IMG/VR virus record: IMGVR_UViG_3300034374_002544
Span: 1-20,468 of that record
Source of the DNA: a virus
Strand: one strand, 5' to 3'
Length of the DNA stretch: 20,468 bases
Every line of letters starts with the position of its first letter. The stretch's first letter is position 1. A model generated the notes under the pieces. The model had not been told where the DNA came from and ran no database searches. It saw nothing but the letters and a program-made list of their open reading frames with translations. This document shows positions 3,001 through 19,308 of this stretch, piece by piece. A program made the translations under genes and the position numbers.

Positions 3001-3777
3001 AACAGCACCAAGTCCGCCTTTTAGTCCAGAAAGAGATGCACCAGCACCTTGAATGAGACCAGATAATCCACCAAGCGCACCAGCTCCACCACCAGCAACC
3101 GCGCCACCAACTCCAACTGCAGTGATACCCTCAACAGTTCGAGCAACTTGACCAAAAGCAGTTTTGCTCTGCTCTCCAAGGCGCTTGAACAGATTAATAC
3201 TTTGCTGAATGCCAGTTTGTAGGCCTCCAATGGCGCCCTTGGTCGCATTGACAGCGTTCTTGCCAAAATCAGCAAGCTCTTCCTGCCTTAGCTGACGCAT
3301 TTTGAACGTCAGCGATTCGATGTCAGCCTCGAGATCATTGAAAGCCTGAGAGCTAACCCGTGTTTGACTTTGTAGTTTTTTGAGCTGGGCAATGTATTTT
3401 GCAACTTCAGTCGAGCTGTTTTTTGTCGATGTTGCAGACTTGACCAAAGCATCACGCTGCCTGATCAAGCCTTCGGACGCGCCTTTTAGTTCCTGTTCAA
3501 GACGCTTAATTTCACCGTCAAGTTTTTTGTAAGTCGAACCCGTAATATCAGCCTGACTTTTCAGCTTACGAAAAGCTTCAACCTGACCCTTAATTACCGC
3601 TTCACTGTTATTTGCACTGCGTACATATTCCTTGATCCCATCGGTCGCTTTATTAATTGCATCATCAGTAATATCTATCGTGCTTGTCAGACCCTTGAAT
3701 GCGCTTTTTAGCCGCGTCAGCTCCTCTAGGCCCTGAATGCCAACCTTGATGTCAAGAGGAGCAACCTGCTTAGCCAT
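1..3777 (-). CDS. Tape measure protein, partial (C-terminus beyond the left edge)
   Basis: This frame begins at ATG 3777 with MAKQVAPLDIK and is open for 1259 codons to base 1 with no stop; I checked every in-frame triplet. It is a tail tape measure protein, which sets tail length and is ejected with the DNA. Residues about 740-920 match the conserved tape-measure N-terminal-type domain, including SAEELSGQLGERLPGAV and a following amphipathic stretch. Residues about 975-1070 are strongly hydrophobic and Ala/Gly-rich, with several possible membrane segments, as in tape measure proteins that form a channel. The N-terminal 200 residues and the region after 1075 are charged and predicted coiled coil. 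A Gly/Ala-rich stretch lies near residues 220-265. The start overlaps the end of the upstream chaperone frame by 8 nt, as in lambda T/H. At about 0.15 nm per residue, the visible part alone implies a tail longer than about 185 nm. Confidence 0.93.
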   Translation of the reverse strand, partial: MAKQVAPLDIKVGIQGLEELTRLKSAFKGLTSTIDITDDAINKATDGIKEYVRSANNSEAVIKGQVEAFRKLKSQADITGSTYKKLDGEIKRLEQELKGASEGLIRQRDALVKSATSTKNSSTEVAKYIAQLKKLQSQTRVSSQAFNDLEADIESLTFKMRQLRQEELADFGKNAVNATKGAIGGLQTGIQQSINLFKRLGEQSKTAFGQVARTVEGITAVGVGGAVAGGGAGALGGLSGLIQGAGASLSGLKGGLGAVPFAGEKLQALVSPEAIARLNEAASNVAALQAKVAGLDQAMDAVTNAFTAFGPTASAGAIAASAGIAIIYDRLRNAAEETRVELEKSFTGIDDEVQGLIRSLTKLRDQIQSLSTAKINELLAAARQRFAAAPAGTPLSRSMASQIAGLEAVGREEAGRQAVVLEEYRQRVRGTSEAAVDLAQRLSFLKGRLQEVDTSTTEGKAEFARLSNESVQLSEQIRKLGDSYRYVGQMATEAATAQENAANAATRANYFNRAAVRAQEQALAELGQRVRAGVAATPLALPAAGQTTAAGTGQEISGGARRLTGQTEFTFGEAQFRNPRAIEFMGRQGLPSAATGISGATGLSDPEAAYRAQANAARAAAIDLSQYRVAIDNAARANNGSVNSIGKLRDAIAALRNQLSPADGDFNRLTKRIQELDAQSERLQVRQGRRRMTGMQMSQAAGAALSGGIFGGPEGFLGGAIGSAFGVGGAFAGAAFGAQIGGLRQQLGGFADYAAQIQKMEIALRSAVKSQADFNRAMAAAEDVTRNLNVPQDVAIGGMTKLTAAVTGAKGPISDAELVLKNVTAAIKATGGSAQDVDGAITAMVQVFSKGKVSAEELSGQLGERLPGAVTKFAKANDMTLPELQKALEQGQVGLNELMKFIEALGAEYADVAQAIAGSSEEAGARLNIAFNDMRIAIGESLQPIGAQFQEIFVNFIENISPALVATLPKIGEAVLTLANNFDSLAIAVAGFTATLGVAKLVAFVAQLGGIALALKQVGVLAAGAASAIMSVNLAALANPWVALAAGIAAASVALYKHNQAQKEYKDLIDNGVGSTEQLKDTQQRLEKQLEAARRSLEDNGSGMQATGRQAMQLKMKIAELENQLARINKTFKIRLSIERQGIRVDDEGKMVDFTVAGIVYDAQGNPVRRTDGRPLNAGVRGYDDPSSTKSGAGKAKKERESQLPQLMAQLAMQQQIAQINEKIRNAQLAENQFLQIRLEGERELAQIAGEIKAIAFEK

Positions 3778-4431
3778 CTTTTTTGTTTAGCTCACTCAAG
3801 GCCGCCGCTTCCATGACTTGAATATCTTCAAGCAGGAGCCGCTTGTCCTTCACATCATAAAGCTGACTCACCCATTGGAGCACTTCATATTTCAAGCCAA
3901 CGTAGCCACCCATTGTGACGTTCCATTGAGTTTGCATTTTTAGGAAAATTTCTAAACATTCCCAATTCTCCTCCCACACCTCAAAATGCTCTGATTCATC
4001 GCGGCGCTGTTCATTTGGAAGCCTGATGCCAAAGGCGGCAGCATCATCCGCAGTTTTGTCTTCTACGATTTTGCCGCCCTTGGCCCAATAAAGCGCCGCT
4101 TCCTTCAGTTTCCCTGGCGGGCACCTTCAAATGTCTCGGTGTACGCCTTCAGCACACCACGAATCCAATAGGGATCATCCGAAAGCTCACGCATGGCCTC
4201 AATCGAAAAAGGCAGCTCCTTGCCATCCTCGTCTTGGATGCCTTCCCATCCCACCATGATCACCTTCAACAAGTCGAGTTCGCCCTTCTCTCCAAGCTTC
4301 TGAAATTCCTTGCGGCCAACACGCTTGAATTTCGCGTCAAAGGTCACCGTGTCAAAAGTGCCGCCGTCACTAGGCTCTTCGATGCTGACCGGCCAAGAAA
4401 AGACCTTAACTTTTTTACGAACAAATGCCAT
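3770..4431 (-). CDS. Tail assembly chaperone, -1 frameshift fusion (lambda gpGT-like)
   Basis: If ribosomes slip by -1 at GGGAAAC (4114 to 4108), translation bypasses the TGA at 4107-4105 and continues from CTG at 4108 for 112 more codons to TAA at 3772-3770. The fusion is about 220 residues. The second frame is open from just after a TGA at 4129-4127 and has no good independent start before GTG 3979. The extension contains KLKEAALYWAKGGK and, near its end, TQWNVTMGGYVGLKYEVL, which resembles the DUF1799 family of T-like frameshift products. In lambda, the T domain recruits the major tail protein to the tape measure, and the G:GT ratio matters for assembly. The fusion has not been measured here; it is inferred from frame, heptamer and position. 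Confidence 0.85.
4105..4431 (-). CDS. Tail assembly chaperone, short form (lambda gpG-like)
   Basis: A 108-residue protein starting MAFVRKKVKVFSWPV and ending in GARQGN. It sits just before the tape measure gene and just after the major tail protein, the fixed position of the gpG-type chaperone, which coats the tape measure during tail assembly. The sequence has the charged, mixed alpha/beta character of phage tail assembly chaperones, with a conserved-looking C-terminal segment around DDPYWIRGVLKAY. I chose ATG 4431. A GTG at 4464 is in frame, but it would begin in the U-tract side of the terminator at 4470-4494. No strong Shine-Dalgarno sequence precedes 4431; the nearest is GGAG about 17 nt upstream. 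The last two sense codons form a -1 slippery site that makes the longer fusion. Confidence 0.85.
   Translation of the reverse strand: MAFVRKKVKVFSWPVSIEEPSDGGTFDTVTFDAKFKRVGRKEFQKLGEKGELDLLKVIMVGWEGIQDEDGKELPFSIEAMRELSDDPYWIRGVLKAYTETFEGARQGN
4108..4114 (-). other. -1 programmed frameshift slippery heptamer GGGAAAC
   Basis: On the minus strand the short chaperone frame reads CAG GGA AAC TGA. GGGAAAC fits X XXY YYZ exactly in the zero frame and lies directly before the stop. Re-pairing to GGG AAA continues into the T-like frame. Lambda uses GGGAAAG at the same place. I did not find an obvious downstream pseudoknot. Confidence 0.88.
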
Positions 4432-4469
4432 GCGTAATGGACGCGATACTCCAACAGCATACACCCGAC

Positions 4470-4522: not shown

Positions 4523-5458
4523 TCAGGTGTAAACGAAGCTGAACTCATCGTTACCAGATGTTGACGGAACACAGGTGAACGGGATGGTCAGCATGTGGAT
4601 GCCATCCTGATCGCTGTAGCTCACATCGCCGATATCGACTCGGGTAGAGGCGAAATCGAAGATGTTGCCAGCGGTCTGACCGTGCTGGAACAACAGGTTA
4701 CCCAGGGTGCCGTCGCTCAGCGCTGCAGTGAAGTAGTCCTTCTGAGCAATGGTCGGGGCTTCGATCACGACGCTTCCGGTGCTGGCACGATCGGTCAGCA
4801 GCACCTGCTTGGTGCAGTTGATCAGATCGCGATACACAAGAGTGTTGCCGATGTCGAAAGTCACCGACTGGAGGCAGCCGCTATAGGACAGCAGCTCGAA
4901 GCCAGTCGTGTTGCCCTGCTTGGCGATCACAGGCGTTGCTTGGTCCGCGTAGGTGACAGAGGGAGCAGCGGTATCAGTCGGTGCGTTGTACACACCAGTG
5001 AAGGTGAAATCAATAGAAGGGATTTCACCCACTGCCATGTTCAGCGTGAAAGTACCGCGAGCACCGGTCACCTTATGCAGCACGCCATCAATGTTGTAAT
5101 AGATGGTGCAGCTACCGAAGCTGGAGCTAACAGGCGCATAAGTTGCACTAGTACCAGCAGAAATGGTTTCACTCATGCCGCAAGCAAGCAGAGCCTTGCC
5201 ATAGCGAGGAGCGGTGCCAGCAGTACCAGAACCAGCAAGCTCAACGCTGAAGGTGCATTCAACGCGAGTGTTGGCCAGGAGCTGCTCAGATGCACCCAAA
5301 TAAGGGCGCACAAGGTCGCGGCTTACGACATCACTCTGCAGGGGAGTGATGTTCAAATCCCGCACCAGAATGGCGTCGGCGCCGTCTGGAGTCGGATCCG
5401 TCCCGTAAGTGCCTTCCGATTCCAGAAGAATCAGGCGTTTCCGAGTTAGAAGGGGCAT
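4523..5458 (-). CDS. Major tail tube protein
   Basis: A 311-residue protein starting MPLLTRKRLILLESEGTYG and continuing with TDPTPDGADAILV. The opening, with a tube-type N-terminal strand and a Thr/Pro/Asp loop, resembles the phage tail tube protein family that polymerises into hexameric rings around the tape measure. The rest is beta-rich with many Thr, Ser and Gly, has almost no long helices, and ends in FSFVYT. It is preceded by AGAGGT about 10 nt before ATG 5458. A TAA at 5467-5465, in frame just upstream, excludes a longer start. An intrinsic terminator follows, and the chaperone genes come next, as expected for this gene. A long open frame on the opposite strand inside it is a shadow. 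The identification rests on order and composition rather than a catalytic motif. Confidence 0.85.
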   Translation of the reverse strand: MPLLTRKRLILLESEGTYGTDPTPDGADAILVRDLNITPLQSDVVSRDLVRPYLGASEQLLANTRVECTFSVELAGSGTAGTAPRYGKALLACGMSETISAGTSATYAPVSSSFGSCTIYYNIDGVLHKVTGARGTFTLNMAVGEIPSIDFTFTGVYNAPTDTAAPSVTYADQATPVIAKQGNTTGFELLSYSGCLQSVTFDIGNTLVYRDLINCTKQVLLTDRASTGSVVIEAPTIAQKDYFTAALSDGTLGNLLFQHGQTAGNIFDFASTRVDIGDVSYSDQDGIHMLTIPFTCVPSTSGNDEFSFVYT

Positions 5459-5595: not shown

Positions 5596-6021
5596 TTAGG
5601 ACGACAAACTCGCAACACTCGTTCTGTATTGAACGATATAATCATTAAAAATTACTCCTGCAGGCTGATCGGCGTCGACAAGGGTGAATGACACCTCATC
5701 AGGCTGCACGTCAATCGCGTAACCACCAACAGTTAAGTCACGCACCATCCTGGCGTGCATATCCTCAATTACTGCATCAGCAATCTGATCTGGAACGTCT
5801 CCCCTCACGATCACGCTAACCCTGACCCGCATTCGCCAATCCAACGTCGGCAAACTTGTGTTCTGCGTTGGCGTGTCGCTGATTGGTTCCACCACAATCG
5901 CTGGCGACTCAGCACGTTGCACAGCGGTTACGCGACTTCGATAAACACGACCGTTCACTCCCGCAGTCGGCGTCAACGCGGTAGTAATCGCTCGCAAAAT
6001 TCGCTCACGCTTGGTCACCAT
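5596..6021 (-). CDS. Tail terminator / tail completion protein (gpU-like)
   Basis: A 141-residue protein starting MVTKRERILRAITTALTP. It has the layout of minor tail proteins of the gpU type, which cap the tail tube and join it to the head: an N-terminal helix, an exposed RVYRSR segment, a central strand pair (WRMRVRVSVIVRG), a helix (ADAVIEDMHARMVRD) and a C-terminal strand ending in YIVQYRTS. It lies between the connector-type genes and the major tail protein, the usual place. GAGG precedes the ATG by about 6 nt, inside the end of the small gene 6005-6175, which it overlaps by 17 nt. The family assignment is by pattern and position. Confidence 0.72.
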   Translation of the reverse strand: MVTKRERILRAITTALTPTAGVNGRVYRSRVTAVQRAESPAIVVEPISDTPTQNTSLPTLDWRMRVRVSVIVRGDVPDQIADAVIEDMHARMVRDLTVGGYAIDVQPDEVSFTLVDADQPAGVIFNDYIVQYRTSVASLSS

Positions 6022-6179: not shown

Positions 6180-6791
6180 TTACGCCTTGACCTCTATTGC
6201 GCTTATTCTTCCGCGCTGAAATTGAATCGTCGTTGTATCACCAATATTTGCAATATATAGCGCAACCTCGTCACCATCTGCCAGTTCAACCATCCAGAAG
6301 CAGAACAGCTTTGCAATCTGTCCCGTAGAACCGCTAAATGCACGGCACTCAGACTGGTCAATGCCAACGCCATTTTTAGCTAGCTTGATGCCAAGTGTAT
6401 GGTTATTGCCGGCATAGGCGTCCATGCTTGCCTGCACCATGAACAACTTGGTGGCGCCGCTGTCATTCTTCAAACCAAACGTATCGCTCGTTCCCAGCAC
6501 CACCTGATAATCCGTTGCGCTATCAAAAGTCGCAGTCAGACCAGTGCTTTGATACGTTCCAGCTTGCGCAATCGCAATAGTCCCAGCGGTGGTCTTGCTG
6601 GCCTGTCCTCTTGCCAGCACACCCTCGATGTAATACGGAAGTGCCGCCCAAGCACTAACACCATTTCCTACCTTGTATTTCCGCGTATCAGTCTCAATAC
6701 CCATTTCGCCTTCAAGCAAAATCGGGTTATTAGCAGTCCACTGAGCAGCGCTGCCATTACGAATTAAGAATCGAGTGATTGTGTCGCTCAT
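6180..6791 (-). CDS. Receptor-binding-like protein: trimeric-knob N-terminus plus TNF/C1q-like domain
   Basis: A 203-residue protein. Residues 1-55 (FLIRNGSAAQWTANNPILLEG, then EMGIETDTRKYKVGNG and W..LPYY) match the N-terminal knob motif shared by the major tropism determinant and phage fibre or hyaluronidase-type proteins, which anchors trimeric adhesins. Residues about 60-203 look like a TNF/C1q-type jelly roll: AGTYQSTG, LGIKLAKNGVGID, and VELADGDEVALYIANIGDT near the end. It is probably a trimeric surface adhesin. Its ATG overlaps the upstream connector-like gene by ATGA. The position, between joining genes, is odd for a tail fibre. No diversity-generating reverse transcriptase or template repeat is in the window. 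Confidence 0.75.
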   Translation of the reverse strand: MSDTITRFLIRNGSAAQWTANNPILLEGEMGIETDTRKYKVGNGVSAWAALPYYIEGVLARGQASKTTAGTIAIAQAGTYQSTGLTATFDSATDYQVVLGTSDTFGLKNDSGATKLFMVQASMDAYAGNNHTLGIKLAKNGVGIDQSECRAFSGSTGQIAKLFCFWMVELADGDEVALYIANIGDTTTIQFQRGRISAIEVKA

Positions 6792-7204
6792 GGAGCACCG
6801 CCGTTAAGTACGTTTCCGGCCACATACTCAGTCGCAGGGCCGCCTCCATCAAGAATAACCAAGCTCTCTGTATCGACACCATCCCCATCAAGCACTGCAG
6901 GCGACACGTCCGCCAACACAGGCGTCGCGCTGCGTTGCAGCATCAAATCACAAAACCTCCCATCATCAAGCAATTCAACTGATCGCACCGTGTAAGGCAG
7001 GCCATCAACGTTGACTCCCGCTCCATATTGCAAATCACCAAACAGGCTCGCAAGGCAGGTGACCTTGTAATCGGTCGTCAGCACCACACCATCCGCCACC
7101 ATCTCACTTGGCATGTCAAGGATCCCAAGCCCACTCGCTGATCCAGCCGAAATCGGTACACCGAAATCGGCGAGGAATACACTCAAGTCTTCAGTGAATG
7201 CCAT
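6788..7204 (-). CDS. Head-tail joining protein (gpFII-like), probable
   Basis: A 138-residue protein. I took ATG 7204 (MAFTEDLSVFLADFGVP) rather than the TTG at 7210. The sequence around the start, with a helix followed by a beta-rich domain (AGVNVDGLPYTVRSVELLDDGRFCDLMLQRS), resembles the small head-tail joining proteins related to lambda gpFII, which sit at the bottom of the connector. The C-terminal 35 residues are Gly/Asp-rich and extended, beyond the usual length of the family. It overlaps the next gene by ATGA. An 83-nt gap precedes it, with no convincing promoter. The assignment is by pattern. Confidence 0.6.
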   Translation of the reverse strand: MAFTEDLSVFLADFGVPISAGSASGLGILDMPSEMVADGVVLTTDYKVTCLASLFGDLQYGAGVNVDGLPYTVRSVELLDDGRFCDLMLQRSATPVLADVSPAVLDGDGVDTESLVILDGGGPATEYVAGNVLNGGAP

Positions 7205-7287
7205 CAGCAATAGCAGGCCCGATGCCAGGGCAGAGCGGGAACAAATGAATTCTAGCCTGTATTAGTCGGGGACACTAGGAGTGCGGG

Positions 7288-8148
7288 TTAAGGCACAGGA
7301 ACTGCGGTTTTATATGGGTGATCAGCAGGGAGGTTTGCAGTGAGTCCCCATTTGTGGGCTAGGTAGCCTTCTAGTTTTTGGCGATTCGTTGTCCTCAGCA
7401 GCGTAGAGCTTACAATCACTTCAGCAAATTTAATGGCTGGACTGTAACCAAGTGCGCCAGAAAATCTCACCGCCCCGAAATGAAGATCACTATCAGTAGC
7501 GTAACCAGTACTAGATGGGGCGGTGTTGGTAGATGTTGTAATCTGGTTTGCCAGATTTAGTTCTATTTGCAACCCGTTCGCGAATAACAAAGTGCCATTA
7601 GTGGAGTTTTTGCTATTTAGTATTTGCGCTGTATTTGCTGCACGTGCATACGAATTACTGCCTAAGCGACCCAAGCCAAAGGATGTAGACTCAAAAAAAG
7701 TCACGATAGACTCTCCCGATAGAACTCCGGTTCCACTTACTAGAGCTTGACCTCTGGCACTTGGATAAATTCCACTGCTACTCCCCAGATTGCCGTATCC
7801 CCAAAAAAGGGCGCTACTTGTATCAGCCGCTGCTGCAGCAGTTGTTTGCGTCACCATGTAGACATCTAACGCATTGAAGCTACCGATTCCCGTGATGGAA
7901 GACGTAAAGCTATCGCCAGTGCCATCAAGTTGGACCGCTGGCTTGTTGGTACTCATACCAGTGGCGCTGTAGGTAGGGTTGCCAGCAGCAGTTGCATTAT
8001 GGCCATTCCCACTTTTGTCAGTCCAAGTAGTAACAGCACCACCGCTCTCAGTAATCGTGCTTGCATCCGCAGCATCCAGCCACAGCGCCGTATCAATATC
8101 AGCCGGTGTCCAGTTGTTCTTCTGAGTCCCCGTAATAATCCAGCTCAT
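7288..8148 (-). CDS. LamG/concanavalin-like lectin domain protein (probable adhesin)
   Basis: A 286-residue protein beginning MSWIITGTQKNNWTPADID, followed by ALWLDAADASTITESGG and TTWTDKSGNGHNAT. These motifs, together with EGYLAHKWGL at residues 260-269 and HPYK near the end, are hallmarks of a LamG-like jelly roll found in phage and bacterial surface proteins that bind glycans. It is likely an adhesin or fibre tip. A strong GGAGGTG lies 5 nt before its ATG, inside the preceding micro-ORF, with which it overlaps by ATGA. The stop is followed by 83 nt without a gene. The ligand cannot be told from sequence. Confidence 0.8.
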   Translation of the reverse strand: MSWIITGTQKNNWTPADIDTALWLDAADASTITESGGAVTTWTDKSGNGHNATAAGNPTYSATGMSTNKPAVQLDGTGDSFTSSITGIGSFNALDVYMVTQTTAAAAADTSSALFWGYGNLGSSSGIYPSARGQALVSGTGVLSGESIVTFFESTSFGLGRLGSNSYARAANTAQILNSKNSTNGTLLFANGLQIELNLANQITTSTNTAPSSTGYATDSDLHFGAVRFSGALGYSPAIKFAEVIVSSTLLRTTNRQKLEGYLAHKWGLTANLPADHPYKTAVPVP

Positions 8149-8207
8149 CGCAACACCTCCGTTTGATTAGTGGCAGTGACTAATAGGTCGTGGTTTGTGT
8201 AGGTCAT
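8145..8207 (-). CDS. Coupled micro-ORF, 20 residues (MTYT type)
   Basis: The frame reads MTYTNHDLLVTATNQTEVLR and stops. Its ATG overlaps the stop of the glycine-rich gene (ATGA), and its stop overlaps the ATG of the lectin gene (ATGA). GAGGT precedes the start by 7 nt. The GGAGGTG inside its GAG GTG codons is the ribosome binding site of the lectin gene. A second micro-ORF at 8938-8991 starts with the same 12 nt. It may be a translational coupler or the relic of a deleted gene. Confidence 0.55.
   Translation of the reverse strand: MTYTNHDLLVTATNQTEVLR
8196..8207 (-). repeat. 12-nt border repeat, copy 1
   Basis: On the plus strand this is TGTGTAGGTCAT, identical to 8980-8991. On the minus strand it encodes the first four codons (ATG ACC TAC ACA) of the micro-ORF at each junction. 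Confidence 0.8.
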
Positions 8208-8941
8208 ATTGCGTACCTCACGATGACAATGCCGGAGCCGCCGTTGTATCCGGCAAAAACTGCGCTACGAGAACGGCCACCTCCACCACCCCCGGTATTC
8301 GCCTGTCCGGGTGTTCCATTATTTAGTCCATAACTATCCCCACGACCTCCTCCTCCTAGTCCGCCCAATCCGCCATATGAGAAACCGCCTCCACCACCAC
8401 CTGCATAGGCGGTAGATGTGCCTGTTATATCAGAAACGGCGCCATCTCCTCCAGCGCCAGCATTTGGATATACACCTATCTGTCCTGGTGTTCCTGTGCC
8501 ACCGGCTCCACCATTTCTAGCAACGATAGACGAGGTTCCTGAACCACCTGTTCCGCCAGTTGCAGTAATGCTATCAAACGTAGAGTTTTCACCATTACCA
8601 CCATTAGCGTTAGCTACGCCAATTCCGCCGGATCCAACGTAGATAGATTTTATGCCAGGTATCAGCACTAATGAACCCGTCAGAAACTCACCAGCATCTC
8701 CACCATCTCCACTGTTTCCAGATGCGCCAATACCTCTTCCGGCTCCACCTCCAGCAACGACAAGATATTCAAAAGACCCACCTTGCTTGATAGTTAGCTG
8801 AGATGATCCAGTAGTGGTAAATACATGCACTCGATAAGGATTGTTTGCAACATCAATGTAAAACACCTGATCGCCACCTTCAGCCCATGTATTTGGCTGA
8901 TTGCGAAGTGTCACCTTCCCCGGCACATAAATCGGGCTCAT
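8204..8941 (-). CDS. Glycine-rich adhesin / fibre protein
   Basis: A 245-residue protein starting MSPIYVPGKVTLRNQPNTW. Residues about 50-235 are a glycine-rich domain with blocks such as YLVVAGGGAGRG, then GGTGGSGTS, and a run of glycines near GGGGGGFSYGGLGGLGGGG, ending in GGSGIVIVRYAI. This pattern is typical of phage fibre glycine-rich domains. In the adhesin gp38 of phage S16, similar stretches form packed polyglycine type II helices that display receptor-binding loops; the analogy here is inference. GGAGGTG lies 5 nt before the ATG, within the preceding micro-ORF. The end overlaps the next micro-ORF by ATGA. Confidence 0.8.
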   Translation of the reverse strand: MSPIYVPGKVTLRNQPNTWAEGGDQVFYIDVANNPYRVHVFTTTGSSQLTIKQGGSFEYLVVAGGGAGRGIGASGNSGDGGDAGEFLTGSLVLIPGIKSIYVGSGGIGVANANGGNGENSTFDSITATGGTGGSGTSSIVARNGGAGGTGTPGQIGVYPNAGAGGDGAVSDITGTSTAYAGGGGGGFSYGGLGGLGGGGRGDSYGLNNGTPGQANTGGGGGGRSRSAVFAGYNGGSGIVIVRYAI

Positions 8942-8991
8942 GACATCACCTCCGCAGCAATCGTAGTGTTGGAAACTTGTGTGTAGGTCAT
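8938..8991 (-). CDS. Coupled micro-ORF, 17 residues (MTYT type)
   Basis: The frame reads MTYTQVSNTTIAAEVMS and stops. The ATG overlaps the stop of the upstream fibre gene, and the TGA overlaps the ATG of the glycine-rich gene; both overlaps are ATGA. GGAG lies 10 nt before its start. The GAG GTG codons contain the GGAGGTG ribosome binding site of the next gene. It is the counterpart of 8145-8207. Confidence 0.55.
   Translation of the reverse strand: MTYTQVSNTTIAAEVMS
8980..8991 (-). repeat. 12-nt border repeat, copy 2
   Basis: Identical to 8196-8207 (plus-strand TGTGTAGGTCAT). The two copies lie at the 3' ends of two consecutive adhesin genes. Confidence 0.8.
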
Positions 8992-9752
8992 GGTATAGCT
9001 GCTCCGATAGCGGTGATTAGAGCTGACACGCGGGTGTCAAGGGCGGCTAGGTCTAGGGATTCGCCGATGGAATAGAAATTAAGTCTTCCATCTGCATATC
9101 CAGCAGTTCCAAAGACTCTAATGTTCTCCGCTGTTGGCGTAACGCTTGTTGTTGAATGAGAAGCATTGCTGCCTCCGTTTCTTGAAATGAAAGTAGCAGA
9201 ATCTGATCTGTTGGTGCCAAAAAAGCCGAGGGAAAGCGTCCTAGTCGAAGACGAAAGGGTCCTGTTTCTGAAATAAATGTTATCAGGAACTGGGGAAATC
9301 GTAAAAGCTGATGTGGTGGCAGCCAGGCTGTCAGTCCCTAGAAAATATCTGTTTACGTCACGTGTATTATTTTCTGTGATGTAAATGGAATAGTGATGAC
9401 TGTTTTGTGGATATGACGCTTGTGTTTGGTTGCTGTCTAGGTACTTGGAACTGCCGTCTCCTTTTAGCCCTGTAATACGGCTGTAATCCCCGGACACGAA
9501 GTTGTAGTTCGTTGGCGCAGTCCCCACAAGCGGAACCAAAGCTCCAGCAAGCGTGCGAGCACCTGCAAGGATACAACTTGCCTTAATCGCATCCCAGATG
9601 CCATCATTCTTGCAGCCAAGGACAAAATCATTGATCGCCTTGGCTACACCAAATTCCAGCTCCTGGCCATCGGCTGCCTCCACAGCAGCGACATACGACA
9701 CTGCTTCAGGTTCGGTCAGTCCGTTCCAACCAGGCACCCATCGCAGCGTCAT
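8988..9752 (-). CDS. Fibre-like structural protein
   Basis: A 254-residue protein starting MTLRWVPGWNGLTEPEAV. An N-terminal helical part (about 1-75, with AAVEAADGQELEFGVAKAI and DGIWDAIKASCILAGARTL) is followed by LVPLVGTAPTNYNFVSGDY and a beta-rich domain with GLKGDGSSKYLDSN. It ends in NFYSIGESLDLAALDTRV. I recognise this layout from phage and environmental proteins in which a helical attachment region precedes a LamG-like beta sandwich, but I cannot name a Pfam family with confidence. It is probably an adhesin. GGAGGTG precedes the ATG by 4 nt, and the start overlaps the upstream gene by ATGA. Confidence 0.68.
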   Translation of the reverse strand: MTLRWVPGWNGLTEPEAVSYVAAVEAADGQELEFGVAKAINDFVLGCKNDGIWDAIKASCILAGARTLAGALVPLVGTAPTNYNFVSGDYSRITGLKGDGSSKYLDSNQTQASYPQNSHHYSIYITENNTRDVNRYFLGTDSLAATTSAFTISPVPDNIYFRNRTLSSSTRTLSLGFFGTNRSDSATFISRNGGSNASHSTTSVTPTAENIRVFGTAGYADGRLNFYSIGESLDLAALDTRVSALITAIGAAIP

Positions 9753-10015
9753 ACATCACCTCCATCGGGCTCAGTAGTGTCGTTGTCTACGACTGGTGCC
9801 ACCCAGTTGGGATCGTATGGGGTGCCATCAGGATTGAACTGAGGCGGGGTAGGACCAACGTAATACGGTCCAACCTTGAGGTCTTGGCACACCTTTGTGG
9901 CCATGCTGGTGGCATAAGCGCCAACCACTTCTTCAGGAGAGATGCCTTCAAGGGAGGCAGTAGCGATGATGCCGGGGACGAGAGTGTCGTCGATAGAGAT
10001 GTTGAAGGTTGCCAT
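9749..10015 (-). CDS. Small hypothetical protein, fibre-associated
   Basis: An 88-residue protein starting MATFNISIDDTLVPGIIATA. The first 50 residues are predicted alpha/beta, with a helix around SPEEVVGAYATSMATKVCQD. The rest is Pro/Asp-rich and extended (GPTPPQFNPDGTPYDP), ending in EPDGGDV. It sits between two fibre-like genes, follows the upstream gene by 5 nt, and overlaps the downstream one by ATGA. No strong Shine-Dalgarno sequence precedes it. The function is unknown; a fibre linker, attachment or chaperone role is only a guess from position. Confidence 0.6.
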   Translation of the reverse strand: MATFNISIDDTLVPGIIATASLEGISPEEVVGAYATSMATKVCQDLKVGPYYVGPTPPQFNPDGTPYDPNWVAPVVDNDTTEPDGGDV

Positions 10016-10020
10016 GATGA

Positions 10021-11058
10021 TTAACCGATGAGCCAGTTTGTACCGTCAGAATAGACGGGGACAGTGTTTGCACCACCGCCTACAGGTGCTGCCGCGAAGG
10101 TTGTGGACGTTGCATCTGAGACAAAACCTCGCGTACCAGCGCCAACTGTTGCTGCGGCTGGTAGTTGTGAAACAAGGACAGGAACTTGCTTGACGTAGCC
10201 AGTGCCAGTAGATCCGTCAGTGATTTTAATGACGCCTGCGGAGTCACGGGCAATTGCAAGATCAGTGCTAAATTTAATTAAGCCACCTGACCGCGCATCA
10301 AACTCTAAGCCTTGAGTTCCAGTTACACTGGTTACTTTTAGTCGAAGAGTTGGCTGTGTATTTGGGGAATAAATTACATTTGTGCTACCATCAATTCCAA
10401 GCCCATTGGTATTAGAATAAGTATGTATTGCAGTTCTATTTGTCGTTGTTGGGGCAATTATTGTACCCACGCTTGAGACCGCTAATTGTCTAGTGCCGTT
10501 TACCTGCAACTCCAACAGGCTCCCACCAAACCCACTCGCTGCATTAACACCAAGGCCAGTACCACTCGTGCTCCACGCAGTCGAAGTGGTACCAGTGGGT
10601 TCAATCAGCAGTTGAGGCTTAGTCGTGGTAGCAGTGCCACCAGTGAACCAAGAACCAGTGAACGAAACAGGCGGCGTAGATGCAGCACCTGCCAAGCTGA
10701 TGTTGATCTCACCAGTGCTGCCGATGCTGGCAGAGGTGAGACCAGCTTGAGCACCTGCAGAGTTGTACGTCAGTTGACCAGAGCTGCCAGCAACTAATGC
10801 GACGGTGCCAGTGGCATCTGGGAAGCTGATCGTGCGGTTAGCAGTAGGCGTGACCACCTGCACGGTGGTTTCGTAGGTGCCGCCGTCATCAAGGTTGATG
10901 TCACCGCCGACGCCAAGCTCTTTGGCGCTGTCGTTCCAGGTCAAATCAGCGGAGCCGGCTAGTGCGCCGCTGCTGTTGTATTGAATTTGCGTATCAGCGC
11001 CGGCAACATATGCATCGCCGCCACCGCCAAATGCCGAACTGAGAGTTAGGGTTTCCAT
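10021..11058 (-). CDS. Repetitive fibre protein
   Basis: A 345-residue, Gly/Ser/Thr-rich protein starting METLTLSSAFGGGGD. Two related segments near residues 22-40 and 95-110 (TQIQYNSSGALAG and GQLTYNSAGAQAG) are repeats of the type found in phage and prophage fibre shafts. TANRTISFPDATGTVAL is a further shaft-type motif. The C-terminus, GANTVPVYSDGTNWLIG, is a tail common to such proteins. No catalytic motif is visible. It begins 3 nt after the stop of 11062-11391 and leads the adhesin block. It is most likely a trimeric surface fibre. Whether it attaches to head or tail is undetermined. Confidence 0.75.
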   Translation of the reverse strand: METLTLSSAFGGGGDAYVAGADTQIQYNSSGALAGSADLTWNDSAKELGVGGDINLDDGGTYETTVQVVTPTANRTISFPDATGTVALVAGSSGQLTYNSAGAQAGLTSASIGSTGEINISLAGAASTPPVSFTGSWFTGGTATTTKPQLLIEPTGTTSTAWSTSGTGLGVNAASGFGGSLLELQVNGTRQLAVSSVGTIIAPTTTNRTAIHTYSNTNGLGIDGSTNVIYSPNTQPTLRLKVTSVTGTQGLEFDARSGGLIKFSTDLAIARDSAGVIKITDGSTGTGYVKQVPVLVSQLPAAATVGAGTRGFVSDATSTTFAAAPVGGGANTVPVYSDGTNWLIG

Positions 11059-11061
11059 GGA

Positions 11062-11391
11062 TCAGATAGTGCCAAGCACAGTCGCGACAGAGGGAGTGCC
11101 ACCACTTAAACTCACGAGCCGAACGCGCACAAATTGAACCGGAGCAAACAAAACGTATCCATATGTACCATTTGCTGTGATCGTATAATCAACTTGATTT
11201 GCCGCTAAATTAAAATAACTATCACCATCAACGCTGCCCTCAAAACGAATAACAACGTTGGTTCCAATATCCGCAACAGTGACCTGAAAACTTAAATTTG
11301 CTCCAGTACTCTTCTGTGCTGCCGTGACACCAGGAGCCGTCAGCGCCTCAAGGCTTGCGGTATCAAAAGAGCTGTCGTATCCGAATGGCAT
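11062..11391 (-). CDS. Small beta-sandwich structural protein
   Basis: A 109-residue protein starting MPFGYDSSFDTASLEALTAP. From residue 30 it is almost entirely beta: LSFQVTVADIGTNVVIRFEG, then SVDGDSYFNL, ANGTYGYVLF and FVRVRLVSLSGG. This is the layout of small phage head-decoration or fibre-base proteins. It resembles the neighbour 11475-11885 in overall architecture (SxDG..., then RxR strand) more than in exact sequence. It begins about 30 nt after an intrinsic terminator, so it depends on read-through or an unseen promoter. No strong ribosome binding site is visible. Confidence 0.6.
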   Translation of the reverse strand: MPFGYDSSFDTASLEALTAPGVTAAQKSTGANLSFQVTVADIGTNVVIRFEGSVDGDSYFNLAANQVDYTITANGTYGYVLFAPVQFVRVRLVSLSGGTPSVATVLGTI

Positions 11392-11421
11392 TAGATGGCA
11401 GCCGCTTCAGCAATCATAACC

Positions 11422-11456
11422 AAAAAAAAGCCTCAGGTCACCAATGCAACCTGAGG
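11422..11456 (-). terminator. Intrinsic terminator after the decoration-like gene
   Basis: A perfect 8-bp stem, CCTCAGGT with ACCTGAGG (11431-11438 and 11449-11456), with a 10-nt loop. It is followed on the minus strand by C and eight U residues (11429-11422). It separates the abundant head proteins from the fibre block. Confidence 0.88.
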
Positions 11457-11474: not shown

Positions 11475-11885
11475 TCAAGCGTACTTCTTCACGCCAACAC
11501 CGTTGATGGAATAGGTATGGGTGGAGCTGTCTACGGTCGAGACAGCTTTGATCCAGCGCTTGGCAGCACCCTTGGGGAACACCAGATACTGCTTGTCAGC
11601 AGTGGTGCTCACCTGAGCAAATGCAACAGCGGCAGAGGCTTGCTCGGTGCCGTCAAGATTGAATACGGTGGTCACATCCGTGTAGCTGCCACCTTCGGTG
11701 TCGCTCGACTGAATTTTGACATCCAAGGTCGACGTACCACCGTTCTCAACATCAAGAATGATCACAAGGTCGCCCTCGTAATCGTTCATGTCGACAGCAG
11801 TACCGCTCAGAGCGGTAGTACGGGAAGCGGTAGGAGCCAGCGCAAAGTGGCTGAGCTTCTCCAGACCAGTGGAAAGAATGGCCAT
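11475..11885 (-). CDS. Probable head decoration / capsid-associated protein
   Basis: A 136-residue protein starting MAILSTGLEKLSHFALAP. The body is a beta sandwich with YEGDLVIILDVENGGTSTLD, QSSDTEGGSYTDVTT and KRWIKAVSTVDSS segments. This pattern is common in phage proteins encoded just after the major capsid protein. It has the best ribosome binding site in the window (see 11892-11900) and is followed by a strong terminator, both consistent with a high-copy virion protein. A decoration role is inferred from place and expression signals, not from a diagnostic motif. An alternative is a fibre-base protein. Confidence 0.65.
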   Translation of the reverse strand: MAILSTGLEKLSHFALAPTASRTTALSGTAVDMNDYEGDLVIILDVENGGTSTLDVKIQSSDTEGGSYTDVTTVFNLDGTEQASAAVAFAQVSTTADKQYLVFPKGAAKRWIKAVSTVDSSTHTYSINGVGVKKYA

Positions 11886-11887
11886 GA

Positions 11888-12115
11888 TTAGTCCTCCTTA
11901 GGGGCGTAGGTGCGTGCCTTGCGCGCGGGCTTGACCGGCTCAGGCTTAACTTCTTCCGTCACCTCGACAGGTGCGGGCTTCTCAACGGCAGGTGCAAAAA
12001 CAGCTTTGCCGCCACCAACCAATAAATTTGCGTCAGCTTCACTGACCTCAATAAAGGAGCCGGCCGGAACCGACTCCCCCGAGACCATGACTTGACGCAG
12101 GATCTCGACCCTCAT
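11888..12115 (-). CDS. Small head-associated protein
   Basis: A 75-residue protein. I took ATG 12115 (MRVEILRQVMVSGESVPAGS) over the TTG at 12121. Residues 1-40 resemble a compact domain frequent in small phage proteins beside the capsid gene: a strand, then VMVSGESVPAGSFIEVSEAD, then ANLLVGGGKAVFA. The remaining 35 residues are a Pro/Glu/Lys/Val-rich, probably unstructured tail (KPAPVEVTEEVKPEPVKPAR). It follows the capsid stop by 2 nt, and its end contains the ribosome binding site of the next gene. The role is unknown; a minor head or completion protein is plausible. Confidence 0.7.
   Translation of the reverse strand: MRVEILRQVMVSGESVPAGSFIEVSEADANLLVGGGKAVFAPAVEKPAPVEVTEEVKPEPVKPARKARTYAPKED
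11892..11900 (-). promoter_or_regulatory. Near-perfect Shine-Dalgarno for the decoration-like gene
   Basis: The minus strand reads TAAGGAGGA, then 6 nt, then ATG 11885. It lies in the last codons of the preceding gene (AAG GAG GAC TAA), so the two genes are coupled while the second can still be made in great excess. Confidence 0.85.
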
Positions 12116-12117
12116 GA

Positions 12118-14778
12118 TCAAGTACCGAGGCAGAAGGCACCAGGCTGCTTCACAGCCACATCCACGTCCTGCAGGGCAATCACGCGGACGGTGCCAGCAG
12201 TAGCACCAGCGTAAGGATCAACAGTCAGATCCAGACCAGACCACATACCCATGATCATCATGGAGAAGTCGCCGAACAGAGCATCGTTGTTGGCAAGCTG
12301 GTTGGACACGATCACGGGGTAACCGTTGATCTCGCCATCCTCGAACACGAAGCCAGCAGCCACAGCAGAGCTGGACTTGGCGGTCGATTTCAGCGCACCA
12401 CGAGCAGCAGCGTTGATGATGTAACGCAGGCTGCCGGCATCAGCGTTAGCAGAAGCAACATCGGTCTCCATGCCGATGTACTCCTCGAAGGTGCCGTAGG
12501 TGGTGATGGTCTGGCTGCCAATGCCGGTGGTGTTGGTCAGACCCAGGGGCTGGTTGCTAGAGCCGGTGCCGTAGATAGCAGCGCGGTCAAGCTCAAGAGC
12601 AATTACGCGAGCCAGATCGTTACGGATCATGCCCTCAACATCGATCGAGGACTGAAGCAGCAGACGACGGCTGTAATCGACATAAGCACCCACAGTCTTG
12701 GGGGTCATGTTGACCTGATCGATTGCCTGCTGGCTTTCGGTCGGGCTGCCGTTCTCACCCACCCAATAGGCAGTAGCAGCGGAGGTCTGACGAGGGATGC
12801 TGATGTTGCCTTGCAGGCCGGTCAGCATGGTCACGCCAGCTTGAGCCAGTGCAAGACGATTGCGCAGCAGGTCGATGAACGAACCAGCCAACAGCTCATC
12901 AGCAACAAGGTTGCCACCAGCAGTGGGGGTGCCCACCACCAGATCGCGACGAAGCACTTCGTTGGGGATCACGATGCCGTTGCTGGCACGCTCATACTTC
13001 TGAGCAGCAGCCTTGCCGACTTCGATTTCAAACTCAGCAGCGCGACGGGCAGAAGCATCACTGGGGTTAGCCAGATAGTTCAGCGCACGAGCAAAGCTGA
13101 AAGAGCGAGTCTCCTTATCGGAGAGGCCGACATCATTAGAAGTGATGTCGGCAGAACGGATGGGTTCTTCCATGGGTTGAGAGCCGAGTTTTTCGAGGAC
13201 GGCAGCGCGAGCCTCGTCGAGGGTGCGACCACCTTCGACAAGCTCACGAGCCAGGTCTTGCATCTGGTGCTTTTCGCCCAGTGCATTGATAGCGGCGATA
13301 CGGGTACGCTCGGCCTCTGCGGCCTTGGACCGGATCACCTCCAGATCTGGAGTGTTTTCCATTTCGGGTTCAGGTGTTGGTGATGCGGCGGGGGCCGCTT
13401 GAATCACGGTCTCATCATTTAGAGACCTGCCAATTCCAATCGTAGGATCAGCAGGTATAGAGACCACGCTGACTTCATAAGGCGACCATCTGGTAGCCAC
13501 GAAGTCACCGCCTCGTTCTTCCATCTTGTCGATGGAATAACCGAAGCTGATGCCGCGCAAAATATTATCGCGGACATCAGCAAGGATTTCCTGAGCGAAG
13601 CTATTACGCGAGAAACGCACTTTGGCGTAGCCGCGCTTCTTCTCCCCATCAACCCAAGCACGCTCTACAACGCCAACGACACGATCTGGATCGTGGTTGA
13701 ACAGCAGAGGCGCACCGTCATTCAGCCGACCAAGATCAGCCGCGTCCATTTCGTGACTTAGTACTTCGTTACCGAAGTACCGCATCACTGGATATTCAGA
13801 GCTAAACGGAAACTCGAAGCTGCGATCATCAACAGCACGGAACTGAACGCTCTCAGTGCGCTGATACTTACCCTCAAGCGAACGAAGCTCCGCAATTTTG
13901 GATAAAGCACTGAAGCGATGCCCGGCCATCACATCGGTCTCCTGCCAGCCATCCTCGCCTTCGCGATAAATTGCAATCAAGGCGGCAGGATCTTCTTCGG
14001 TGCCGACAATCTCAAAGCTGCTGCTCGGTACATCAATGCGACCGCTGCGCTCAATTCGTTTAATTTTTCCTTGAGCTTTGCCGCCAGGAGTGTTCCATCT
14101 GACAAAATCTCCAACCTTTAGAGCATCGGGAGCAGCACGTTCTGCTGTCACAGGTTCAGCCTCAATTTGCTCTACTTTAGAGCGCTCACCTGTTGCTTCT
14201 TCAAATTCAAGCGGCTCATAATCGCGCTCGCTCAGCCACGCGCGAGCCTCCGCAGCAGTGAACTCGCTCAGTCGAAAACGAATTGCCTGCAACTCGGCAC
14301 CGTCCTCGCCCTCTTTGATCCCAAAAATAAAATCAACCCCTTCGCCGCCTGCATCATTACGGCGACGGAAACGGTCGTACTGCTCAGGATCACGCAGTCT
14401 TGCTGCATGTTCATTCGGATAAGGACGCTCCATTTCAAGCGCCTCATCCATAGTCAACTCACGGTCAGAGTCCATACGAGCCACAAGTGCATCACTCCAT
14501 GTTTTACCTGGGTCGCCTCCCCAGGCTGCCCATGCCACCCTTCCTGGCGATGGATATCCTTCTTCTCCAGCACTAAATCCCTCGGCCTGCTTGTCCACTT
14601 CATGGCGAGCAAACCATGCGCTCATCGTGCGAATCGTTTCATCACTCAGCTCGTCACCACTCAAAATCTGACCCGCACGCCGAGCGGCAACATCAGTGCC
14701 ACCCTTGCGACCTTCTTCTTTCCACGCGCGATAACGCCGCGCCTCTTCCTTCATTCCATCAGTCGGCTTAGCGCCCAT
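12118..14778 (-). CDS. Prohead protease-major capsid polyprotein (HK97 type) with extra N-terminal domains
   Basis: An 886-residue single frame. Residues about 1-110 are a helical segment with SPGRVAWAAWGGDPGKTW, and about 118-195 are a second conserved-looking segment (YPNEHAARLRDPEQYDRF, then RFRLSEFTAAEARAWL). Residues about 218-295 resemble the HVA1/Tudor-like domain (LKVGDFVRWNTPGGKAQGKI). Residues about 310-455 are an HK97-type prohead protease, with candidate catalytic His362 in LLFNHD, Ser411 in RGISFGYS and an acidic residue near 435. Residues 475-600 form a charged delta-like/scaffold segment. Residues about 605-886 are the capsid protein (GGNLVADELLAGSF, ATAYWVGENG, LDRAAIYGTGSSNQPLG). 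GGAGGAAG precedes the ATG, which overlaps the portal stop by 1 nt. No good internal ribosome binding site precedes Met473 or Met536, so cleavage of the fusion is expected. Confidence 0.92.
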   Translation of the reverse strand: MGAKPTDGMKEEARRYRAWKEEGRKGGTDVAARRAGQILSGDELSDETIRTMSAWFARHEVDKQAEGFSAGEEGYPSPGRVAWAAWGGDPGKTWSDALVARMDSDRELTMDEALEMERPYPNEHAARLRDPEQYDRFRRRNDAGGEGVDFIFGIKEGEDGAELQAIRFRLSEFTAAEARAWLSERDYEPLEFEEATGERSKVEQIEAEPVTAERAAPDALKVGDFVRWNTPGGKAQGKIKRIERSGRIDVPSSSFEIVGTEEDPAALIAIYREGEDGWQETDVMAGHRFSALSKIAELRSLEGKYQRTESVQFRAVDDRSFEFPFSSEYPVMRYFGNEVLSHEMDAADLGRLNDGAPLLFNHDPDRVVGVVERAWVDGEKKRGYAKVRFSRNSFAQEILADVRDNILRGISFGYSIDKMEERGGDFVATRWSPYEVSVVSIPADPTIGIGRSLNDETVIQAAPAASPTPEPEMENTPDLEVIRSKAAEAERTRIAAINALGEKHQMQDLARELVEGGRTLDEARAAVLEKLGSQPMEEPIRSADITSNDVGLSDKETRSFSFARALNYLANPSDASARRAAEFEIEVGKAAAQKYERASNGIVIPNEVLRRDLVVGTPTAGGNLVADELLAGSFIDLLRNRLALAQAGVTMLTGLQGNISIPRQTSAATAYWVGENGSPTESQQAIDQVNMTPKTVGAYVDYSRRLLLQSSIDVEGMIRNDLARVIALELDRAAIYGTGSSNQPLGLTNTTGIGSQTITTYGTFEEYIGMETDVASANADAGSLRYIINAAARGALKSTAKSSSAVAAGFVFEDGEINGYPVIVSNQLANNDALFGDFSMMIMGMWSGLDLTVDPYAGATAGTVRVIALQDVDVAVKQPGAFCLGT

Positions 14779-18800: not shown

Positions 18801-19308
18801 CAACACTCTCCGCTAAATCTTCAAGGGTTTCGCGCACAATATCCTCAAGCATCGTCACCGCATCAGTATCAAGATCCGGGATTCTTTGCTTCGCCTTGGT
18901 CGGTATCCCCATAATCTTCGTCCGCGCCAGCGTCACAATCTCGACCCACTTCAACTCAACCTCCTCAGCCTTGACCAGCAATCCCTCCTTCTGTTGTCTT
19001 TCCAGCTCAAGCAGCTCTGCTTTCAGGTGCTCAGTCCTTGCCCTGCTCTCGTCATAGTCAGGAATCGATTCTTGCGTCTTGCCTAATCTTGGCGCGCGAG
19101 GCTGCTTCTCCCGCTGTCTTACTGGCCCAACGTTGATGCGAGTTTGAGTGTTCTTTGCCCACTCTTCCCGCATTGTGTTGCTGTCTATTTTTTCCGTGCC
19201 ATCAGCATCAACCACCACGGACAGCCTATTTTCCTTGATCGCGTTGTAGATCGACTGACGGCTCACGCCAAGCACTCGCGATGCCTCAGTTTTGGTAAGT
19301 AAAGTCAT
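18793..19308 (-). CDS. Terminase small subunit (Nu1-like)
   Basis: A 171-residue protein starting MTLLTKTEASRVLGVSRQSI. Residues 1-35 are a winged/helix-turn-helix DNA-binding segment (EASRVLGVSRQSIYNAIKEN), the part that recognises the packaging site in Nu1-like subunits. A basic, flexible stretch (RQREKQPRAPRLGK) precedes a helical, probably coiled-coil region (residues about 85-125). The C-terminal acidic helix should bind the large subunit, whose gene follows with an 8-nt overlap. The start overlaps the end of the HNH gene by 23 nt. No obvious cos hairpin is visible nearby. Confidence 0.9.
   Translation of the reverse strand: MTLLTKTEASRVLGVSRQSIYNAIKENRLSVVVDADGTEKIDSNTMREEWAKNTQTRINVGPVRQREKQPRAPRLGKTQESIPDYDESRARTEHLKAELLELERQQKEGLLVKAEEVELKWVEIVTLARTKIMGIPTKAKQRIPDLDTDAVTMLEDIVRETLEDLAESVDE

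Follow-up and report, generated by a model that had tools for sequence, protein, structure and literature searches.

Why does a tailed phage of cyanobacteria carry a row of adhesin-type genes between its head genes and its tail genes, and how did these genes reach that position? The question is raised by the IMG/VR viral record IMGVR_UViG_3300034374_002544, a linear fragment of 20,468 bp, analysed here as a whole and called the window below. A sequence-only reading had described six fibre, lectin or knob-like genes at 6180-11058, between a decoration-like gene and the tail terminator and tube genes, and had proposed that they encode head or neck fibres or form a mobile tropism cassette. The listed open reading frames (ORFs) are present on the minus strand in tight operonic order, and gene order bears out the placement of the block between the major capsid protein (MCP)/decoration region and the tail terminator and tube genes. 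The block is almost certainly an exchangeable receptor-binding cassette, with a conserved element at its downstream end, designated S4, as the right breakpoint. The data throughout are metagenomic or database sequences, in which related sequences are not independent, and p-values are approximate.

The inserted cassette and its right breakpoint

The terminase, portal, capsid, terminator and tube genes group the window with the Synechococcus siphoviruses S-CBS1, S-CBS3 and S-LBS1, and the window is a virus of ocean cyanobacteria. Its DNA similarity to known phages is almost wholly within the block, where parts of the 8-11 kb stretch are 82-90% identical to KBS-S-2A and S-CBS4. The remaining genes of KBS-S-2A and S-CBS4 are unrelated to the window.

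Eighty loci fetched by the tail terminator and 80 fetched by the decoration gene gave 74 distinct regions between the decoration gene and the FII-like gene that follows it. The gap between the two genes is 114 bp or less in 61 of these regions and larger in 13. The full 4.26-kb insert, which extends from the gene at 11062-11391 through the gene at 7288-8148, is found in two regions only, those of the window and of contig L089, which is nearly identical to it. L009, L022, L093 and L112 contain parts of the insert that run to the ends of these contigs. The slot is occupied by an Mtd homologue (Pfam mtd_2nd) in S-CBS1 and S-CBS3 and by other fibre-type genes in L213, L243, L012 and L066, and the insertion is located after the FII-like gene instead in L153, L183, L205, L229 and L235. 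In the empty site of L013/L064, a TAGAAT element directly follows the terminator hairpin of the decoration gene. The alignment with the window places the insert between this hairpin and the TAGAATT element before the FII-like gene. The flanks of the empty sites are 85-100% identical. Close relatives thus do not all carry the same genes. The proposal of a mobile tropism cassette is strongly supported by the empty sites and the other slot contents, by the occurrence of the block genes elsewhere in the genomes of unrelated sipho- and podoviruses, and by sharp exchange breakpoints.

These breakpoints are located at the end of the array. The sequence CCCTCGTAGTGTCCCCGACTA, directly after the last lectin gene, is a conserved element with near-zero information content beyond ~23 positions. 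It includes S4 (TAGTG-tcccc-GACTA, 7263-7277, minus strand), the right limit of the insert. The S4 core occurs 63 times in 3.1 Mb when two or fewer mismatches are allowed, once per contig and practically always on the coding strand. The exact 19-mer of the element is found in 48 contigs among all viral contigs scanned, as a single copy in each and nearly always at the 3' end of a lectin array. An 18-mer of the element has no match in ~85,000 prokaryote genomes.

In seven pairs of contigs, the last 200-600 nt upstream of S4 are 88-100% identical and the downstream DNA is unrelated; 32 pairs show the reverse, being alike downstream of S4 and unrelated upstream. The last lectin gene is 89.8-96.5% identical over its whole length, with unrelated DNA just past S4, in L095/L102, L023/L335, L164/L174 and L094/L342. 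The pair of L164 (siphovirus type) and L174 (podovirus type) has its breakpoint across virus types. L152 and L328 are 99.7% identical over 3.9 kb; the identity begins 7 nt before the core, and the DNA preceding that point is unrelated. In the podoviruses 7B11-B and WH11-B, the element cuts a ~112-aa gene to 50 aa. At L353:8867-9020 (7B11-B), the terminal element is located within the truncated copy of this gene, which is longer in other phages; this is apparently an exchange scar.

Two other readings were considered. Simple integration of a circular element at the slot was rejected, since the left end of the insert has no matching site. A diversity-generating retroelement, as implied by the Mtd homologues, was set aside because the variation consists of gene replacement and no reverse transcriptase family was recognised among the scanned window proteins, although this applies to an incomplete genome and no search for a template repeat was made. 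With regard to a moron, an independently transcribed insert between two operons, the head-operon terminator precedes the insert, a -10-like TATGAT is present at shuffle level, and the end of the insert has no clear terminator.

Sites between the array genes

The motif of S4 recurs in inverted orientation inside the array. A 15-bp site, TAGTC-N5-CACTA (with the variant TAG[T/A]C), is present in the lectin-gene spacers. S3 (TAGTC-actgc-CACTA, 8168-8182, minus strand) is upstream of the start of the last lectin gene and S2 (AAGTT-tccaa-CACTA, 8964-8978, minus strand) is between two array genes. S1 (TAGAC-aacga-CACTA, 9775-9789, minus strand) is within the 3' coding end of an 88-aa gene. S3 and S4 match 10 of the 10 arm bases, S1 matches nine and S2, a weak site, matches eight.

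The spacing is strict. In 3.48 Mb, the motif with N5 appears in 86 distinct contexts with 19 spacers, compared with 0-4 contexts for N0-N4 and N6-N12 and 0-6 in shuffled sequence. When contexts having either flank in common were merged, 27 remained at N5 versus 0-3 at the other lengths, and 21 of the 27 have a spacer other than the three common ones. Arrays contain exact sites at 14 times the density of loci lacking S4. The 5-nt spacer is constant for a given position and different between positions. The sites coincide with exchange breakpoints and often overlap TAG stop codons.

S1 differs from S4 by three mismatches, and it was accepted as a site on the basis of codon usage. In the codons for NDTT at S1, AAC is used in 30 of 30 genes, GAC in 30 of 30, and ACT in 30 of 30 and 29 of 30, against 61%, 67% and 30% elsewhere in the same genes. 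This freezing of synonymous codons indicates constraint on the DNA. The strict spacing, the synonymous freezing and the variable centres suggest that the sites are very probably recognised by a protein.

The sites might instead be RNA or translation signals, such as coupling leaders or a long-range pairing of S3 with S4, with the nearby breakpoints incidental. S3 is just upstream of a Shine-Dalgarno sequence and is complementary to S4, with covariation of the two at one arm position (Fisher p 4e-4, uncorrected for ancestry). However, sites are also present inside coding sequence, over the stop codons of unrelated small genes, and near a recombinase gene in arrays lacking lectin genes, and a signal of this kind is very improbable. 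Coding of a mini-ORF leader is an unlikely cause of the conservation of S3, since, as judged by eye, core changes alter amino acids and synonymous positions stay fixed. Tiny ORFs of ~16-20 codons are seen at 8149-8203 and 8942-8987; ATGA overlaps link each of them to the stop codon before it and the start codon after it, which would suit translational coupling.

Another possibility is a short homology linker. The array-end sequence would then be a self-perpetuating homology patch for phage single-strand annealing recombinases, and ordinary homologous or homeologous swaps would take place between this linker and the fibre/88-aa genes. Lambdoid phages are known to have boundary sequences of this kind. 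The breakpoints are at or near the element with a latitude of 6-20 bp, and annealing proteins are annotated in S-CBS4 (Sak-like) and in S-LBS1, in keeping with such a linker. But identical 5-bp arms at exact N5 in S1, S3, the inverted S4 and more than 12 other sites with unrelated spacers are more than a linker requires, and it does not account for the association with the recombinase described below. We regard it as improbable.

A candidate recombinase and a proposed exchange model

The candidate enzyme, called INT here, is the tyrosine recombinase (PF00589) of S-LBS1, encoded at L005:10085-10939 in the FII-to-terminator part of the same region. Its homologues adjoin fibre/lectin arrays in several unrelated backbones, at about a dozen loci. 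A site with at least nine of the ten arm bases is located within 250 nt upstream of INT in nine of 24 distinct loci (p 3e-11, a uniform-base estimate). L256, L258 and L355, the last from a targeted scan, are window relatives with tail-tip arrays of small ORFs, and in these ORFs the TAG stop supplies the first three bases of a site. The ORFs differ from phage to phage, and identity begins 6-17 nt before the INT-proximal site. L252 and L257 have the same backbone as the INT-bearing L256 and L258, and INT is cleanly deleted from them with the flanking DNA kept.

INT matches XerC/XerD models weakly and has no match to the integron-integrase equivalog; the integrase of S-SRP02 is only distantly related to it. 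The S-LBS1 enzyme was described as a lysogeny integrase, and no integration in the host was found (Zhong et al.). INT may still be a lysogeny integrase; against this role stand the missing S-LBS1 integration and the lack of a close relative of INT in the genome collection. The role of the S-LBS1 integrase in lysogeny may need rethinking.

Endonucleases are also found beside the element. If the element were the target of a homing-type endonuclease, cuts there would spread the neighbouring lectin genes by gene conversion. Endonuclease genes of one family are located directly after the element at L003:23343-23918 (S-CBS4, where the element is degenerate), L166:10965 and L299:1575, and genes for endonuclease VII and an HNH protein follow it in podovirus 7B11-B. 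Most arrays, however, have no endonuclease next to the element, INT adjoins more arrays than endonucleases do, and such enzymes do not usually have targets with short fixed arms around a variable 5-nt centre. Spread by homing is therefore quite unlikely.

The following mechanism is proposed. The block would be a receptor-binding cassette composed of a small protein, a fibre, an 88-aa protein and three adhesin/lectin-type genes, inserted as a unit of its own between the head-operon terminator and the start of the tail operon. S1, S2, S3 and the inverted S4 would be the crossover sites of a site-specific recombination system run by the Xer-like recombinase INT, which is encoded beside such arrays in some phages. 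Each position has its own constant 5-nt spacer, so that in a co-infected cell the recombination would take place between equivalent slots of the two phages. One lectin gene or the whole array would thereby be replaced in register, as is also supposed for pdif modules. We infer that INT acts on the sites and that the exchange is site-specific rather than homologous; the products would bind cyanobacterial surface glycans.

The proximity of INT to the sites and the analogy with the Rin and pdif systems support this scheme. Spacer-matched, site-specific exchange with INT as the enzyme is the best model, and its truth is considered reasonably likely. The wider form of the proposal is that picocyanobacterial phages share a dedicated cassette system with TAGTC/CACTA arms, 5-nt position-specific spacers and an Xer-like recombinase of the S-LBS1 "integrase" family. 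This system would exchange single receptor-binding genes between unrelated sipho- and podoviruses and swap small genes near the tail-fibre locus, and the S-LBS1 integrase would be a cassette recombinase rather than, or besides, a lysogeny enzyme. To this wider form we give slightly better than even credence.

Several observations weigh against the scheme. Strong sites close upstream are absent from 15 of the 24 distinct INT-bearing loci. The window, a 20-kb fragment, carries no INT, most arrays have none nearby, and KBS-S-2A was published as lacking an integrase. S2 is weak. The breakpoints can be placed only to about ±20 bp, the sites themselves being conserved, so that short-homology recombination is possible. 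The sites were first noticed in, and then largely tested on, the same data, although the scans for S3 and for INT-proximal sites are partly independent. The recombination itself is proposed from sequence comparisons, not directly observed. The opposite orientation of S3 and S4 predicts inversions, but a reversed lectin gene was seen in none of the 62 arrays; inversion, either as an ON/OFF switch or as a shufflon, is not supported.

Known systems resemble the arrays in part. The Rin shufflon of bifidobacterial prophages (Mavrich et al. 2018, PMC6109161) inverts DNA within one genome at rix, an 11-bp repeat (TTCCCTAACCC). As in Rin, receptor-binding genes stand in tandem, a short repeat precedes each variable gene (S1, possibly S2, and S3 here), a constant fibre gene is on one side and, in the INT-bearing relatives, an XerD-like armless tyrosine recombinase is on the other. 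Unlike Rin, the present arrays have TAGTC/CACTA arms and position-specific spacers, no inverted lectin gene (0/62), exchange between unrelated phages and, in most cases, no recombinase nearby.

In the pdif (dif) modules of Acinetobacter plasmids (PMC13141974), the flanking sites are inversely oriented and combine conserved arms with variable spacers, and in-register replacement of the modules is thought to need matching spacers. Here the inverse orientation of S3 and S4 and the position-constant spacers are seen, and spacer-matched recombination is a proposal. The pdif sites are distinct XerC and XerD sites around a 6-bp spacer, used by the host XerCD (PMC13141974), in contrast to the 5-bp arms, strict 5-bp spacer, phage-borne recombinase candidate and receptor-binding cargo of the present system.

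Integrons and attC clusters in phages (Qi et al. 2023, PMC9892861) share promoterless ORFs with a site near the stop codon and a tyrosine recombinase, a likeness clearest in the tail-tip arrays of small genes. The sites here are 15 bp long, not long folded repeats, and the attC boxes GTTRRRY/RYYYAAC are absent from S1-S4. A canonical integron was rejected because of the absent boxes and the missing integron-integrase match.

In the Alteromonas phages A5, V22 and P24 (PMC10579305), a receptor-binding module is common to morphologically different phages. A text search of that report for "site-specific" gave no description of dedicated sites or a dedicated recombinase, whereas single genes at fixed sites are involved here. 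Mtd, the protein of Bordetella phage BPP-1, has homologues in the same slot of S-CBS1 and S-CBS3, and the gene at 6180-6791 encodes an Mtd N-terminal domain; the difference is that the window varies by gene swapping, with no recognised reverse transcriptase among its scanned proteins. No earlier description of the present sites was found in the open-access literature; subscription journals, for example the original S-CBS genome paper, were outside the search.

Gene content and location of the products

All recognisable phage genes of the window are on the minus strand. In the direction of transcription, the order begins with terS, terL, connector, portal, MCP (12118-14778), 11888-12121, 11475-11885 and 11062-11391. 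The array genes follow in the order 10021-11058, 9749-10015, 8988-9752, 8204-8941 and 7288-8148, and then 6788-7210, 6180-6791, the tail terminator (5596-6021), the tube (4523-5458), the chaperone and the tape measure. The tape measure is cut by the window end, and the region behind it can be read in relatives only.

The decoration-like gene at the left edge in the sequence-only reading is probably 11475-11885 (phrog_5707), a conserved backbone gene for a small protein, which the FII-like gene directly follows in 61 of 74 distinct relatives. The left limit of the insert is a terminator-like hairpin with a T-run at 11431-11456, which ends the head operon and is present in both empty and filled sites. 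It is the best of seven terminator-like sites, against 6.0 expected in shuffles, yet its position and hairpin are kept across relatives. Just after it, a -10-like TATGAT at 11413-11418 is a candidate promoter of the inserted unit; it matches 9 of 12 consensus positions, which is no excess over shuffles, and L112 has it at the same position.

The first gene to move with the block, 11062-11391, encodes a 109-aa protein, a candidate adaptor. Its homologues adjoin the same fibre gene as in the block in L144 (tail-tip context), L149 and L186 (podovirus type) and L151 (KBS type). The gene at 10021-11058 encodes a 345-aa fibre-like protein homologous to KBS-S-2A and S-CBS4 genes, of which the N-terminal ~200 aa are conserved and the C-terminal part is swapped among relatives. 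The 88-aa conserved cassette protein (9749-10015), whose gene overlaps the start of the next, has no named function. The 254-aa product of 8988-9752 belongs to the unnamed PHROG family phrog_17104 and is a candidate adhesin; its AlphaFold model (pLDDT 52) is too poor for use. The gene at 8204-8941 encodes a 245-aa glycine-rich adhesin-like protein (Pfam Gly_rich_2, E 2e-19).

The last array gene (7288-8148) encodes a 286-aa protein with a predicted ConA/LamG-like lectin fold. Its profile weakly matches carbohydrate-binding domains of sialidase-type proteins (E 0.027), and its model (pTM 0.73) matches the ConA-like lectin jelly rolls of a trans-sialidase lectin domain, an arabinanase domain and calreticulin. 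This generic fold also occurs in clostridial neurotoxin binding domains, which has no functional implication here. Within the block, a lectin fold is predicted for this protein only, and the products may bind receptors, as proposed.

To the right of S4, TAGAAT at 7249-7254 is a putative -10-like element of the tail operon. The connector-like gene that had been placed inside the block (6788-7210) is the first resident gene after the insert and belongs to the backbone. Its resemblance to FII/Hc1 head-tail joining proteins is below the cut-off (Pfam Phage_attach 7.5e-5, 23.7 bits versus 26; phrog_82 E 0.26). The gene at 6180-6791, for an Mtd_N-domain fibre protein (Pfam Mtd_N 2e-11; PHROG tail fibre family 4e-106), is a variable resident between the FII-like gene and the tail terminator. 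In most relatives it is resident too, with the N-terminal 57 aa conserved; the rest is swapped in many, or the gene is replaced by one for a 110-aa beta-type protein. Adhesin-type genes are thus present as described, but the six do not form one block, as 6180-6791 is separate. Family matches of 8204-8941 and 6180-6791 and the model of 7288-8148 agree with adhesin, fibre or lectin labels; in 9749-10015 no fibre or lectin similarity was detected.

Some observations concern other genes. Small proteins with the pattern S-L/V-D-G...W/Y-F-x-L are encoded at 11062-11391, 11475-11885 and L069:4868-5200, and possibly represent one beta-sandwich family used repeatedly beside the decoration gene, within the cassette and in the FII-terminator slot. 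The capsid gene at 12118-14778 encodes an 886-aa fusion of head-maturation protease and MCP with an extra N-terminal domain. At 3770-4464, two small genes before the tape measure match PHROGs of tape measure/tail-assembly chaperone type, and a frameshifted chaperone pair is possible. The 352-aa ORF at 19286-20344, upstream of the small terminase gene, has an HNH-type label from sequence inspection, given without a family search.

The location of the products on the virion is a separate matter. Block-protein scans and gene-order maps revealed fibre/88-aa/lectin sets in at least four settings. In window-type and in unrelated KBS-S-2A-type phages they fill the head/tail slot; L137 and L169 have them between the portal and scaffold genes; S-CBS4-type phages carry them behind the tail fibres; and in podovirus-type contigs, including S-SRP02, they adjoin a tail fibre or maturase gene. 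The first two settings agree with the earlier proposal of head or neck fibres, in which the head/tail-completion position reflects the place of the products: two unrelated siphovirus backbones use the same slot, and some contigs have the array between head genes. The homologous genes beside tail fibres in S-CBS4 and podoviruses speak against it, and an operon boundary is in any case a tolerated insertion point. We consider head or neck fibres rather doubtful. That proposal does not compete with the exchange mechanism.

From the genes adjoining tail fibres, the products could equally be tail-tip fibres. The lambda-type arrangement, with receptor-binding genes after the tape measure, had been contrasted with the window. 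Window-backbone relatives with an empty slot do have ordinary fibre genes behind the tape measure, in one case including a gene homologous to that of the 345-aa fibre. The head slot is thus a second, optional locus for fibre genes.

Even without the recombinase, the breakpoints pinpoint the places of receptor-binding gene exchange. Should the sites be points of crossover, Synechococcus phages would have a common exchange format for host-attachment genes across virus families. Synechococcus is among the most abundant photosynthetic organisms. The well-known hypervariability of fibre regions in marine phages would thereby gain a concrete mechanism, and the retention of the integrase gene in S-LBS1, a phage of which no lysogen has been found, would be explained. 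A further gain would be a new small recombinase with short, heterospecific sites, and host-range evolution would become testable gene by gene in the laboratory phages KBS-S-2A, S-CBS4, S-SRP02, 7B11-B and WH11-B.

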